NCBI RefSeq assembly: GCF_019059575.1
Contig: NW_024881981.1
Coordinates: 372,001-436,000, forward strand
DNA length: 64,000 bases
Reading direction: 5' to 3'
DNA from: Amphibalanus amphitrite
Lineage: Eukaryota > Arthropoda > Thecostraca > Balanomorpha > Balanidae
Position numbers and translations under genes: made by a program. Under the pieces are notes generated by a model. That model had not been told where the DNA came from, searched no databases, and worked only from the letters and a program-made list of their open reading frames with translations. Within the stretch, counting starts at the first letter, position 1. Each line of letters begins with the position of its first letter. Of the stretch, positions 20,156 to 26,909 are shown one piece after another.

Positions 20156-20360
20156 GTTACACAACTCATAAGACGGTTTGGGGAAATCGTGGGGATCGGA
20201 CGTGTCGCATCGAGCTCCTGCCCTGTTCCTTCGTCAGCTGTTGCTGTGACTCAGCTGTTGACGTGAACTCCAACGGTCGCTTTTCAAATTTTCCGAAGCA
20301 AATTTTCTTCATCGGTCTACACAGTAAATGGTCTCTGGTGAATTTAAATGAGAATTTGAA
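20156..20360 (+). other. Possible 5' UTR of the CR1-like LINE
   Basis: About 200 bases precede the in-frame ATG of LINE ORF1. They may be the element's 5' UTR. A TTTGAAAT at 20355-20362 also occurs right after the 3' tail (25608-25615) and could instead be a target duplication marking the 5' end, in which case the element is slightly 5'-truncated. Confidence 0.35.
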
Positions 20361-22646
20361 ATGCCTCTCGAACATTCACCGGTGTTACCGCGTCGACCTT
20401 CTGCATCTCTTCGAGACGACAAATCGGAGCAGAATCGCGCGCCAGATTCGTCACGAAACCTGATCCCCGACGCGGGGAACGACGCCACGGACTTCGCAAG
20501 CAGGGTTACCGCTGCTAGGGAAATTTCCTTTTTCTATGGAAATCAGCGAAGATCTAGGGATATATGGATTTCACACGAAATCTAGGGAAATACCACAAAC
20601 CCGAAAATTTGTTGTTTTTTCAACAATCGAAATCATTGTTGTCATGAATTATTCTTCCGCATGTCATATGAAATAAATATGAGAACAATTTTCACAAAAT
20701 CAGGTTTGATACTCTCGTTTTAAATACATAGGGGGTTAATTACATATGTATGCATGCATATATGATTCCTGCTAATTGCTATTATTTCAAAACAAACTGC
20801 TTCCATGCTTTGTATTGTCCATATCGGGTGCGGCTAATTTTTACATCAACGTTTTGTTTTTGCGCGATTTTTACAATTTCTAGCGCATTTCACTTCTTTA
20901 CGGTTAAACTGACGGCATGCGAAATAATGCATCGACTCGTCTCTTATCGCCAGCACTACCTATACGGTATAGTTTCCCGCGTCCCGCAACATGAACACAC
21001 CACAATTTACGATATACCACGCACTTATATTATACCATTACCACATACAGTAATTTGCTATATGCCTCATTAGACTCTCTTACGTTAACGTAACGAATGT
21101 AGTTAATTGCTGTTTACGACGCATCGACTATAACACGAATGGTTAAAATGAGGAAAGTACGTCAAAATCCAGGAAAATAACCGCATCTAGGGAAATGATT
21201 TTCAAAATAGGGAAATTTTTGTGAGAATCTGGGGAAACCAGCGAGACGCCAGCGGTAACGCTGTTCGCAAGTGGTGGAGACGGGCGAGACGGGGAAGGTA
21301 CAGAAAAACGTGCAGGTATGGATCAGGCCAAGGCTATATAAACCTATATAAAGGATCAGGCCACCAGCAAACCAGTCGGTAAGCTTGATGAAAGCATTTA
21401 CAAGTTATTTGGCCAGGAATCAGTTAGTTCCCTCTCTCGCTCATCCAGCGATACTGGCAGCGAGGGGGCAGTGTGCAAAGGGGGCCCTAACAAAGTTTGT
21501 GGTAACCCAGTCAAGGACGGTGAAACAGGAGTCCAATGCGACAGGTGCCATGATTGGTTTCACGGTGCCTGCCAGGGAATACAGAAGGCAGCACTTAGGG
21601 CCCTTGAGAGATTTGACACTCTTGCATGGCTGTGCTCAAAGTGTAAGTCGGACCTGAAAAGTAGGAAGGATCGTCCCCCAATGTTGGCTGCCCTTGAAAG
21701 TAAGATCGGACAGCTTGAAAAGATGATTATCAGGCACATGGAAGCGGTCGACAGCTCAGTCCAGGTTCAGGAGCAAACCATGAAGGAACATGCTCACCAG
21801 GTGGAAAAGTCCCTGCAGGAGTATGCAAAAAAGGCCAAAGAACAAGTCAAAGTTGTCGAACAGTCAGTCATGCAACACAAAGCTTCGTACGCTGACACTG
21901 TTAAGGGCACATGTAGCGAGATTGCGAATGTGGTGAAATCTCAGCTAGCCATGCTCCCCAAAGCAAATGAGGTTAGCGACAGGAAAAATGTGCAGGAGCT
22001 GTCAAAGGTGCTGGATGACCACTTGGACAAGGAGCGACGCAAAGCAAATGTTGTAATACACAATCTCCCTGAACAGGACGGCAGCACAGTGGGCGAAAGG
22101 TCGGCTAAAGACATGGCCCTCTTCACCACCATTCTGAAAGATGTCATGAAGATCCATGCTCCAGCATCAAAGTCATTCAGAGTTGGTAAGAAGTATGAGG
22201 GCAAGCCAAGGCTACTGATAGTTACTCTTGAAAATGCTGCTTGCAAACATGACATCCTGAAAGGGGCCCCCCAACTCCGACATTCCGAACAGTATGGGAA
22301 CATATATATCACCCCAGACCTCACCCAGAAAGAAAGGGAGACTGGCAAAAAGTTGAGAGCAGAAATGGCAGCTCGCAGAAAGGCTGGTGAAGCCAACTTG
22401 ACAATCAGAGGGGGGAAAATTGTACAGGTACCACCCACTGTCGTGGTGGAGGGAGGCAGTAGGGCTCCTGCTGTCCTCTCTAGTGGCAGTGGGGCACAAG
22501 CACAGGCAACATCTAATGGAGAGGCTCAAAGTAGAGAATCTACACGCGCCCCAGCTGTCCCCGGTGGTGACGGCGGGGCACAGGCTGTGCAACGACCACT
22601 CACCACCCCAACACAGGCCAGTTCTGCCCCTGCTGCGCAGAAGTGA
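20361..22646 (+). pseudogene. LINE ORF1: PHD finger, coiled coil, RNA-binding protein, interrupted
   Basis: The frame begins at the ATG at 20361 and runs open to the hAT insertion at 20501. Leaving out that element and one copy of its duplication, it continues in the same frame at 21272. It reaches a second in-frame ATG at 21318, then a TAA at 21339-21341 in a 33-bp segment bounded by repeats of GATCAGGCC, and is open from 21342 to the UGA at 22644. The intact part holds a C4HC3 PHD-like finger (about 21472-21650: CKGGPNKVC, CDRCHDWFHGAC, WLCSKC). It continues with a coiled coil (about 21690-21900) and a region like the RNA-binding part of CR1/L2 ORF1 (RRKANVVIHNLPEQDG to TQKERETGKKLRAEMAARRK). 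No ATG lies between 21342 and the finger, so this copy probably makes no normal ORF1 protein. Confidence 0.85.
20501..21263. mobile_element. hAT-type MITE inserted in LINE ORF1
   Basis: The termini are CAGGGTTACCGCTG and, reversed, CAGCGTTACCGCTG. Exact 8-bp duplications TTCGCAAG lie at 20493-20500 and 21264-21271. Inside, a CTAGGGAAAT-like motif recurs near both ends (20514, 20555, 20580, 21186, 21210), probably transposase-binding subterminal repeats. The 763-bp element encodes nothing recognisable. Its insertion point falls between the second and third base of a codon of LINE ORF1. Confidence 0.88.
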
Positions 22647-22650
22647 CTAG
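22644..22650 (+). promoter_or_regulatory. Candidate UGA-CUAG stop-codon readthrough site in the LINE
   Basis: The only stop between ORF1 and ORF2 is TGA followed directly by CTAG. UGA-CUAG is the established leaky-stop context in animal readthrough genes. The frame continues without interruption on both sides. Confidence 0.65.
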
Positions 22651-25502
22651 GTCAGCCTCCAGCTAGCCACAAGCCCAGGAGTCTGTGTGTGTTATACACA
22701 AATGCTGACCAGTTCGTGAGTAAGCGGGATGACATGTGCATGCTCATCTGTAATGACGAGCCTGATCTGATTATGGTAACAGAGACAATTCCCAAGGCCC
22801 AAAAAGTTCCCATAGCCCCCGCTCTCCTCAACATACCTGGGTACACACTCTACACCAATTTCTCGCTATCATCTCCTAATCTTGGATGCAGCGGCATAAG
22901 AGGAGTATGCATCTACGCAGCTGATTATCTCAGGGTGTCAGAAGTCTCTCTCAGCTCATCGTCAGTGGAACATGTGTGGCTTAGACTGTCACTGATTGGG
23001 AGTGACTGTCTGCTGCTGGGATGTGTTTACCGCAGTCCGTCAAGATCTGATGAAGAGCATGCCACTCACCTGGGTCAGCTCATTCGACAGGCAAGTTCGA
23101 TGTCCTACTCGCATCTGGTGATTGTAGGAGATTTCAACTTTCCCCAGATCAATTGGGAAACTGAAGCATCCAACGCACCTGACACCCATCTTTCACAAAC
23201 TTTTCTCGACACGATACATGACTGCTTCCTTTTCCAGCACGTCCGCTCTCCTACTAGATTTCGATTGGGTGAAACTCCAAATGTACTGGACCTGGTGTTA
23301 ACCAACGAAGAAGGCATGATTCGTAATCTCGAGCACCTTCCTGGACTCGCCAGAAGCGATCATGTTGTCCTGAAATTTACTATTGTTTGCTATGCGGATG
23401 TGTGTACCTCACACCGCCCACCGATTCTACACATCAACTACGAGCGCCTTGCAGGTGTCCTGAGGTCACGAAACTGGGATGATATCAGAAACTTGGACCT
23501 GGAAGAAGCATACGAATCGTTCAAGTCGCAAATCACCGGAGACGTTGAAGACTGTTCGGTCAAGAGAAGCGCCCACTCCAGGAAGAACCTCTACATGAAT
23601 CGGGCGGCGATGCAGCTGAGAAAGAGGAAGCAGGTGCTGTGGGGCGTCTACCGTCAAACTCTCGACAACGTGGATCATGCCCGGTTTGTGAGGTGCAGAA
23701 ATCAGCTTAGGGGCCTGACGAGAAAACTTCGAAGGGACCACGAGTCAAAGCTGGCATCGAACCTCAGACAGAACCCCAAAGCATTTTGGAGGTACGCCAA
23801 CTCTAGGCTGCGTACTAGGTGCCGTGTTGAAGACCTGATGGATGACAACGGTGAGCTTGTGTCCAGCAACCGAGCAAAAGCTGAAGTACTAAGCAGGTTC
23901 TTCTCCAGCGTCTACACCTCAGAGGGAGCTGAGCCTCCCCCAGCTCTGCCATGCAACTTCCAGGGACCCCCACTGGTTGACGTGGATGTATCGCCACAGA
24001 AAGTTGAGGCTAAGCTGGCGGTCTTGAAGCCAACTAGCTCGCCAGGGCCGGATGCTATTCATCCCCGAGTGCTCCGCGAGTCTGCAGGCCCCCTGTCCGT
24101 ACCCTTGAGTTTGCTATTTGCAAAATCACTGGAAGCAGGAAGTCTCCCCTCTGATTGGAAGATTGGCGAAGTAGTCCCCATATACAAGAAAGGCGACCGC
24201 AGAAACCCCGCGAGCTACCGACCAGTGAGCCTTACCTCCATTCCGTCAAAGGTGCTCGAGTCCATCATTCGCGACCATCTTCTTCAACACTTCACGGACA
24301 GTGGCCTGCTGCATGCGGCTCAGCACGGATTTCTCCCGAGGAGATCATGTTCCAGTCAGCTACTGGAGGTGATGGAAGATTGGAGTGCTGCATTGGAAGA
24401 TGGTGACCCAGTTGATGTCGTATACCTCGACTTCGCCAAAGCCTTCGACTCGGTGCCGCATCAGCGACTCCTCAGTAAGCTGCGCGCTTATGGAGTCGGG
24501 GGGAAGCTGCTGAGTTGGATTGAGGCTTTCCTTGTTGGTCGTACTCAGAGGGTTGTGCTGCAGGGATCGAGGTCTGACTGGGTCCCCGTCACCAGCGGTA
24601 TCCCCCAGGGATCTGTCCTTGGTCCCGCCCTCTTCACGATTTTCGTCAATGACATGCCCCAGCAAGTGTCGAGCTGTGTCAAGCTGTTTGCAGACGACAC
24701 AAAACTCTACCGTCGTGTGACAGGTGACCCTGCCGGCCTTCAAGCTGACATCAACGCTCTGGTCAACTGGTCGAAGAAGTGGCTGTTGCCCTTCAATGTG
24801 TCGAAGTGCAAAGTGATGCATGTCGGAGGTCTGAATCCTGAGCACACATACTTACTGGATAACGCCGCGATTGAGAGCGTGAGCGAAGAGAGGGATCTGG
24901 GCATCATTATCGACGAGAACCTGAAGTTCCACCAACAAACTGCTGCTGCCATTGCAAAAGCGACCCAGATGTTGGCTGTTGTGAGGCGCTCATTTGCTAC
25001 CCTCGACGTGATCACGCTGCCTCTGCTGTACAAGTCTGTGGTGAGACCGTTCCTCGAGTACGGCAACATTGTATGGGGGCCATTTGGCAGAGTCAACCAG
25101 AAACGGTTGGAGCGGGTACAACGTCGAGCGACTCGCATGGTTGACACCATCAGACATCTCCCATACACCGAGCGTCTGCGCCGTCTCGACATACCGTCGC
25201 TGTACTATCGTCGTCGCCGAGGGGACATGGTGACAGTGTTTCAGCTGTTCCATGGTGGCATGTCAGTGGATCCTGAAGCGCTTCCGACCAGACACAGCTC
25301 CGACCGCACAAGGGGACATCAGTGGAAGCTGCAGAAACCGAACGCAAGAACGCTCACGAGGAGGAACACCTTCAGCACAAGAGTCGTGAATGACTGGAAC
25401 TCTCTGCCAGCTTCTGTAGTGTCTGCCACCAGCGTCAATCAGTTCAAGGCCAGGCTGGACGAACACTGGAAAAGCCTGAAGTATGACATTCCATACCCAT
25501 AA
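22647..25502 (+). CDS. LINE ORF2: APE endonuclease and reverse transcriptase
   Basis: This is an open frame of 951 codons directly after the ORF1 stop and in the same frame. The endonuclease domain starts around 22689 (LYTNADQFVSKRDD) and includes GDFNFPQINWE (about 23128) and the SDHVVLKF motif (about 23356). The reverse transcriptase has SPGPDAIHPRVLRE, PIYKKGDRRNPASYRPVSLT, YLDFAKAFDSVPHQRL, GIPQGSVLGPALF and the catalytic FADD at 24687-24698. No RNase H domain follows. The first ATG in frame is 22734, past the Asn of the first endonuclease motif. So a normal start there would delete part of the active site; readthrough of the UGA or re-initiation at a non-AUG codon is more plausible. No frameshift or stop occurs in the domains, so the enzyme may be recent or active. 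Confidence 0.9.
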   Translation, partial: LGQPPASHKPRSLCVLYTNADQFVSKRDDMCMLICNDEPDLIMVTETIPKAQKVPIAPALLNIPGYTLYTNFSLSSPNLGCSGIRGVCIYAADYLRVSEVSLSSSSVEHVWLRLSLIGSDCLLLGCVYRSPSRSDEEHATHLGQLIRQASSMSYSHLVIVGDFNFPQINWETEASNAPDTHLSQTFLDTIHDCFLFQHVRSPTRFRLGETPNVLDLVLTNEEGMIRNLEHLPGLARSDHVVLKFTIVCYADVCTSHRPPILHINYERLAGVLRSRNWDDIRNLDLEEAYESFKSQITGDVEDCSVKRSAHSRKNLYMNRAAMQLRKRKQVLWGVYRQTLDNVDHARFVRCRNQLRGLTRKLRRDHESKLASNLRQNPKAFWRYANSRLRTRCRVEDLMDDNGELVSSNRAKAEVLSRFFSSVYTSEGAEPPPALPCNFQGPPLVDVDVSPQKVEAKLAVLKPTSSPGPDAIHPRVLRESAGPLSVPLSLLFAKSLEAGSLPSDWKIGEVVPIYKKGDRRNPASYRPVSLTSIPSKVLESIIRDHLLQHFTDSGLLHAAQHGFLPRRSCSSQLLEVMEDWSAALEDGDPVDVVYLDFAKAFDSVPHQRLLSKLRAYGVGGKLLSWIEAFLVGRTQRVVLQGSRSDWVPVTSGIPQGSVLGPALFTIFVNDMPQQVSSCVKLFADDTKLYRRVTGDPAGLQADINALVNWSKKWLLPFNVSKCKVMHVGGLNPEHTYLLDNAAIESVSEERDLGIIIDENLKFHQQTAAAIAKATQMLAVVRRSFATLDVITLPLLYKSVVRPFLEYGNIVWGPFGRVNQKRLERVQRRATRMVDTIRHLPYTERLRRLDIPSLYYRRRRGDMVTVFQLFHGGMSVDPEALPTRHSSDRTRGHQWKLQKPNARTLTRRNTFSTRVVNDWNSLPASVVSATSVNQFKARLDEHWKSLKYDIPYP

Positions 25503-25585
25503 GAGCCCAGACTGTCCTAGTCCTAGAGCTCGATGAGAACGGGATCTCCAGGCCAAGTGGCCTTTTCCCTCCCGATCACTGTGAA

Positions 25586-25607
25586 GGTAAGGTAAGGTAA
25601 GGTAAGG
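25586..25607 (+). repeat. (GGTAA)n 3' tail of the LINE
   Basis: Four tandem copies of AGGTA/GGTAA end the element, matching the short repeat tails of CR1/L2-type LINEs. Confidence 0.8.
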
Positions 25608-25610
25608 TTT

Positions 25611-26347: not shown

Positions 26348-26909
26348 TTAATGGATACCTGGACATGCTGCACAATGATTGTTGACAAGATCATGAAATG
26401 CAGACCACAAGAAGCCACCAGTTGGCTGTTGTGGGCCGGAAGCTATGGAGTCACAAATATCGGACGAGCGGTGTGTTCGAGGCTGACGGAAGCCAGCGAG
26501 GGCAGGGCAACGGAGCAGCACGTGCTCCAGCACATCAGTCTCTTCTCGGCACATGGCACAGAGCGCCGCAGGGCACCGCTTGTCTGGGCACTGGCACGCC
26601 GCGGAGTGGAGACAGCCGATTCGGTGCAGAGTACTGGAGCGAGCGGCCCCAGTGGCCCGCCCATGCACCGAAACGGCGTCCTCTCGGTCCTCTCCGGGGA
26701 TAGGGAGCGGCGGCGTGCTCCCGAGTAGTGGCTTGAATAGTGACTCGGACCAGTTGTCGCGCCATTGACGCGAGGCCGCACAATGAACCGCCCGGGTCAG
26801 CGAGCGGTCGTTTGAAGGCAGGGCCTGCAGGGCGGCTGCTTGTTTAGCCAGGTCGTTCGCGATCTCATTCTCGATACCGCAGTGGGCAGGAACCCACCGC
26901 AGTATTACT
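26348..26909 (-). pseudogene. 5'-truncated non-LTR retrotransposon, RNase H end and C-terminal CCHC-like motif
   Basis: The minus strand reads, without a break, from the end of an RNase H domain (LRWVPAHCGIENEIANDLAKQ, about 26903-26840) to a terminal zinc-knuckle-like motif (CAMCREETDVLEHVLLRCPAL, about 26560-26500) and a TAA at 26350-26348. This is the C-terminal end of an ORF2 from an I, R1 or Loa-type LINE, a different clade from the CR1-like element nearby. A stop immediately upstream of the open part marks the 5' truncation. It is a dead-on-arrival copy with little decay. Confidence 0.85.

Follow-up and report, generated by a model that had tools for sequence, protein, structure and literature searches.

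An in-frame UGA-C junction between the two reading frames of LINEs in Amphibalanus amphitrite as a proposed site of programmed readthrough

Introduction

How does a LINE translate a second reading frame that continues in the frame of the first and has no start codon ahead of its endonuclease motif? The question is raised by one element in the window, by which we mean the whole 64,000-nucleotide stretch of the Amphibalanus amphitrite genome analyzed here. As a preliminary description of the sequence had claimed, ORF1 and ORF2 of this element share one frame and are parted by a UGA stop (22644-22646) with CUAG directly 3' of it (22647-22650), and no other stop lies between them. That description proposed that ORF2 is made as an ORF1-ORF2 fusion by readthrough of the stop. 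In LINEs with non-overlapping ORFs, translation of the second ORF is described as not known in the relevant passage of a 2007 paper (PMC1965478).

In RNA viruses, UGA-CUA and UGA-CGG are type II readthrough signals, according to the sections of a paper that deal with them (PMC3542737). Most viral type II sites have an extended 3' stem-loop starting about 8 nt after the stop. Parts of another paper (PMC4132726) give about 1.5% readthrough in a reporter system in human cells for UGA-CUA alone and about 3.5% to about 31% for genes with UGA-CUAG; readthrough at UGA-CUAG is described there for OPRL1, OPRK1, AQP4, and MAPK10, for which a 3' context of about 12 bases is sufficient. Against these rates, the wording of the preliminary description, which called the context the strongest known leaky one, was too strong.

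The LINE copy in the window

The LINE copy, a member of what we call family A, occupies positions 20174-25609 of the forward strand, as delimited by blastn against five other copies (L031, L032, L033, L034, and L054). The LINE itself contributes approximately 4.6 kb, and positions 20501-21263 belong to an insertion that arrived later. The ORF1 frame, which encodes a Gag-like protein, was called from stop to stop at 21342-22643 (21342-22646 with its own stop) and has 434 codons counted from the preceding stop. Its front is broken in this copy by the 763-base insertion and a 33-base duplication, so that the N-terminal part is interrupted; L031, which is 99% identical to the window copy, has an uninterrupted ORF1 of 493 codons that begins with an ATG, followed by an ORF2 of 951 codons. 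The ORF1 protein contains a PHD finger (21495-21644; Pfam PF00628, E 1.3e-8, residues 52-101), followed by a region and a tail that were judged by eye to be coiled and disordered. The 3' end of the element is a (GGTAA)n tail at 25586-25607.

ORF2 (22647-25502, 951 codons) holds endonuclease and reverse transcriptase domains in one ORF (Pfam PF14529, E 8.4e-15, and PF00078, E 7.6e-34). It opens with an in-frame linker of 16 codons without an ATG (22647-22694), which leads to Tyr17-Thr18-Asn19 (22695-22703), the first residues of the YTNAD motif. These three residues are invariant in the seven families that were aligned, and Asn19 (codon 22701-22703) we take to be the catalytic Asn of motif I of the APE type. 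Reading into ORF2, no ATG occurs in frame until codon 30 (22734-22736), beyond this motif, in agreement with the preliminary description, and because the motif is 5' of that ATG, a protein begun there would miss Tyr-Thr-Asn. An annotation that requires an ATG would likewise misplace the ORF2 start in this family and drop the endonuclease motif.

The ORF2 profile matches LINE-1 ORF2p, and the element is a non-LTR retrotransposon (LINE) with an APE-type endonuclease. A profile search of the PDB with the endonuclease part gave only a weak match to TDP2 in which Asn19 is not covered. The PHD finger was found in ORF1 of four of the five families scanned and is absent from family E, and short tandem 3' tails were seen by eye in families A to F. 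From the PHD-type ORF1, these tails, and its general look we presume the element to be a CR1/L2-like LINE. CR1-like LINEs with a PHD-finger ORF1 were reportedly described by Kapitonov and Jurka in 2003, and would resemble the window LINE in both the PHD finger of ORF1 and the combined endonuclease and reverse transcriptase of ORF2.

Copies and families sampled

The comparison is confined to one genome of 807.6 Mb, from which all families were drawn. A 501-base query spanning the junction listed 40 similar places, including near-full and partial copies as well as more distant families. The near-full copies of family A number eight, counting the one in the window, and match the query at 96-100%. 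Among L001-L030, the loci of this family in which the junction is present (TGACTAGGTCAG) keep TGACTAG in register, while L010 and L013 are without the junction. Longer stretches taken at places on this list yielded the first ring of relatives, families A to G; the search described next supplied the second ring. A protein search with the N-terminus of the endonuclease returned 1103 candidates, 150 of which were scored and listed; junction regions were taken at 80 of these 150 places (60, then 20) spanning different score classes, and the regions obtained earlier were added. Families were defined as clusters at 80% DNA identity, which sorted the junctions of L031-L051 and L059-L118 into 38 clusters. 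Two of these, L071 and L099, have no ORF1-like frame upstream and were left out of the family counts as 5'-truncated. The later 20 places added one new family (L142), while L141, L143, L144, and L149 had no usable junction, being truncated or decayed. The final sample is thus 37 usable families. ORF2 proteins are 49-76% identical among families A to F and 52% identical between G and A, and families A to G each have an ORF2 of 947-960 codons beyond the stop. No relatives of the element were confirmed in collections of viral contigs and genome contigs.

The stop codon and its context

The junction stop is TGA in all 37 families, and the +4 base is C in 36 of them. The preliminary description had expected alignment of other copies to be informative, and within this genome it is: the near-full copies keep the heptamer, and an in-frame UGA-C recurs in families that are much diverged, so the junction is not a matter of chance. 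Positions +4 to +6 read CTA in 23 families, CTG in three, and CTC, CTT, and CAG in two each, with CAT, CAA, CGG, CGC, and TGT found in one family apiece. CUA or CGG, the two type II triplets, therefore follow UGA in 24/37 families, including the window's own, and the other 13 have neither. The hexamer CARYYA occurs in one of the 37 (E, a CAG family). In the first ring of families, the four bases after the in-frame UGA at the equivalent place are CTAG (A and F), CTAA (B and D), CATA (C), CAGC (E), and CTCG (G). Counted by copies, TGAC is present at 91 and TGAT at three of 94 loci assigned to 36 families. The only sampled family without C at +4 has UGA-UGU, alike in its three copies (L081, L139, and L140), and this family may express ORF2 differently.

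Across 36 families, the information content per position is 2.00, 2.00, 2.00, 1.82, 1.10, and 0.51 bits from +1 to +6, and then 0.03, 0.34, and 0.23 bits from +7 to +9. Upstream of the stop, A is frequent at -2 (24/36 families) and at -5 (23/36). The heptamer itself is not over-represented genome-wide, with 23,904 forward matches to TGACTAG compared with 42,578 for the reversed pattern.

At none of the junctions read has the stop been replaced by a sense codon, so that production of a separate ORF1 protein seems to have been retained as well. Folding of single sequences of up to 130 nt found nothing unusual before or after the stop; in seven families with three windows each, no unusual 3' hairpin or stem-loop was detected (z -1.75 to +1.37). 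The NPGP motif of 2A (StopGo) peptides was found at none of 84 loci, the scope for most second-ring loci being the junction region.

The shared frame and candidate start codons

The linker was delimited by reading upstream from YTN until a stop was reached in the frame of ORF2, and because it was read in this way, its whole number of codons is not evidence by itself. The informative feature lies upstream of the stop, where at least 100 codons are open in ORF2's frame in some copy of 35/37 families. This count is made up of 34/36 families plus L142, which has 139 open codons; the open stretch is just 52 codons in L092 and 48 in L105. In most second-ring families the upstream sequence covers approximately 110-210 codons, which were assigned to ORF1 from their open frame and general appearance rather than by homology search. 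The ORF1 proteins of families A to E align. No sampled family has an out-of-frame junction at the family level, and frame was lost through decay, by frameshifts or rearrangements, in single copies (L015, L028/L053, L030/L058, and L052). The preliminary description had pointed to sense codons or frameshifts in other copies as evidence against readthrough; these are absent among families, and frameshifts appear in single decayed copies. The commonest linker length is 16 codons, and the linkers of L094 (41 codons) and L115 (45 codons) are still open.

An in-frame ATG before the endonuclease motif is absent from 28/37 families and present within the linker of the other nine, at differing places. 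A conserved start just upstream of YTN, also raised in the preliminary description, is lacking in most families, but four (L080, L094, L100, and L115) carry an in-frame ATG immediately ahead of YTN (as part of YTNADQ), and a second route of initiation beside readthrough is possible in these. Among other in-frame linker codons, CTG occurs in 15/36 families, GTG in 12/36, TTG in 10/36, and ACG in 7/36, compared with 9/36 for ATG. No start codon common to all families, or at one fixed place in the linker, was found. In some families the stop shares bases with an AUG, in the form AUGA in 10/37 and UGAUG in one (L081, where the stop overlaps an AUG on both sides), never in ORF2's frame. Because ORF2 shares the frame of the stop, such an overlapping AUG cannot start it, and the arrangement of SART1, in which the ORF2 start codon overlaps the ORF1 stop, is not found in the sampled LINEs.

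Selection at the junction

Mean pairwise identity between families is 1.00 for the stop, 0.95 at +4, 0.67 at +5, and 0.45 at +6, and falls to 0.23-0.39, near chance, from +7 to +30. It is also raised at -2 (0.49) and -5 (0.44). Two fourfold-degenerate sites just downstream show identities of 0.32 and 0.29. Because +7 to +30 and the silent sites are at about chance while TGA-C is nearly fixed, resemblance through neutral inheritance should have been erased. ORF2's own stops provide a control: among 26 contexts from 25 clusters, they are TGA in 11, TAA in 10, and TAG in five, with C at +4 in three and UGA-C in one. The contrast between 35/36 UGA-C at the junction and 1/26 at the ORF2 stops gives a Fisher P of 4e-15, a value that is too small because the families share ancestry and are not independent trials. 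Since UGA ends ORF2 in 11 of these 26 contexts, the host does use this codon as a terminator and has not simply reassigned it. Taken together, the near-fixed TGA-C, the silent sites at about chance, and the mixed stops of ORF2 indicate that not only the stop but also its weakness has been retained. A sense codon at this position would yield the fusion only and a strong stop ORF1 only.

The linker evolves as would be expected if it were translated but loosely constrained. Its pN/pS is 0.49 (P 0.013) in 12 family-disjoint ungapped pairs, the calculation relied on here, which agrees with moderate selection; the ratio is 0.69 in the ORF1 tail and 0.08 at the start of the endonuclease. Two other estimates were set aside, one of 0.61 from 29 pairs, several of which are not truly alignable, and one of 0.47 from 19 pairs that were picked by protein identity and are redundant and biased.

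Readthrough and its alternatives

The UGA at 22644 is very probably a programmed readthrough stop, by which these LINEs would make an ORF1 protein and a minor ORF1-endonuclease-reverse transcriptase fusion. Most ribosomes would stop at UGA and release the ORF1 protein. A minority would decode the UGA as a sense codon, with the C-U-A-G 3' of the stop weakening termination, and would pass through the short linker to produce the fusion. Readthrough would in this way determine how much ORF1 protein is made relative to enzyme and would tether the enzyme to an ORF1 particle, similar to gammaretroviral Gag-Pol. What the sequences display directly is the common frame, the stop with its context, the conservation of these features in 37 families of one genome, and the lack of an in-frame AUG ahead of the endonuclease motif in 28/37; the occurrence of readthrough, its rate, and the purpose of the fusion are inferred.

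The main alternative is that ORF2 is made separately, either by termination-reinitiation or by internal initiation at a near-cognate codon such as CTG or GTG in the linker. Such a route has precedent in two-ORF non-LTR elements like the window LINE, as portions of one paper describe coupling at a UAAUG stop-start in SART1 and a proposal of unconventional reinitiation for L1 (PMC5972666). Codons that could serve for it (CTG, GTG, TTG, ATG, and ACG) are present in frame in the linkers, and AUGA or UGAUG overlaps occur at the stop, though out of ORF2's frame. However, no candidate is shared by all families or placed consistently. Separate initiation would also require neither a common frame nor UGA-C, whereas 36/37 families have UGA-C and 35/37 a long in-phase open frame. 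With a linker ATG in only nine of 37, these counts support the preference of the preliminary description for readthrough over reinitiation, and we regard separate initiation as improbable.

Two further explanations are each less probable still. The junction could be a relic, in which a stop arose once within an originally undivided ORF and was simply passed on to its descendants, with ORF2 expressed in some other way. The families do plausibly share one TGAC ancestor, and ORF2 identities of 49-76% among A to F are in keeping with common descent; the chance-level identity around a nearly fixed TGA-C and the mixed stops at the end of ORF2 nonetheless make this very unlikely. Bypass of the stop at the RNA level, by splicing of the junction or RNA editing, seems similarly remote. 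Nothing in its favor was found, and an RNA altered in this way and retrotransposed would leave stopless genomic copies, and none is present among the junctions read.

A broader version of the readthrough proposal is that a whole ancient lineage of animal LINEs depends on obligate UGA readthrough, producing its endonuclease and reverse transcriptase only as an ORF1 fusion in a manner akin to Gag-Pol, across dozens of families, with UGA-CUA favored and UGA-CGG and CARYYA-like contexts as occasional substitutes. We lean only slightly towards this wider claim.

Comparison with known systems

Readthrough of the junction would tie LINEs to the logic of retroviral Gag-Pol. Gammaretroviruses such as murine leukaemia virus are LTR elements that also produce a structural protein and a minor reverse transcriptase fusion from one RNA by readthrough of a stop. 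They differ in that their stop is UAG with a compact pseudoknot, classed as type III in the sections of PMC3542737 cited above. The replicases of alphaviruses and tobraviruses are closer in signal, as the same sections describe UGA with CUA or CGG and an enzyme carried as the C-terminal extension (PMC3542737); they are viral systems, whereas the window element is a LINE with no unusual 3' structure. In the vertebrate genes OPRL1, OPRK1, AQP4, and MAPK10, the seven bases of the signal are, from the parts of PMC4132726 that describe them, identical to those of the window's family. These genes extend host proteins, whereas in the window LINE a 951-codon enzyme frame follows the stop.

Among retrotransposons, SART1 and L1 differ from the window LINE by their stop-start coupling or reinitiation (PMC5972666, in part). 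A parallel is offered by group 3 of the Paramecium germline LINEs, in which ORF1 and ORF2 are likewise in one frame and readthrough of the ORF1 stop is suggested by the authors in the passages on that group (PMC5405496). This group belongs to a ciliate clade of its own, and the suggestion was drawn from consensus sequences, those passages giving no analysis of the stop context. In open-licence PMC full texts, we found this single earlier proposal that a LINE uses readthrough, and no report of readthrough in an animal LINE. The preliminary description's view that this strategy is unusual for LINEs fits that literature, but the idea had already been put forward for Paramecium. Zorro3 of Candida was considered as a precedent and rejected, as the relevant portions of two papers describe multiple stops between its ORFs and a first ORF2 ATG that matters (PMC1965478, PMC7175516).

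For the translation of second ORFs, a large group of LINEs here suggests an answer through its sequences, namely a fixed weak stop at the junction as against a mixed stop at the other end of ORF2. The families also supply natural variants of what would be one readthrough site, with CUA, CUG, CUC, CUU, CAG, CAA, CAU, CGG, CGC, and UGU after UGA.

Additional features of the window

The 763-base insertion at 20501-21263, which lies inside ORF1, is flanked by an 8-base target duplication (TTCGCAAG) and is absent from L031 and L033. Its 14-base ends form inverted repeats matching at 13/14 positions, and it is presumably a small DNA transposon of the hAT type. The 33-base insertion at 21330-21362 is partly duplicated, has TATATAAA sequence, and places an in-frame TAA in the front of ORF1; it is absent from L031 and L032. 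Further downstream, on the minus strand at 26348-26908, a frame of 186 codons looks, on visual inspection, like the RNase H tail of a LINE different from the one described above.
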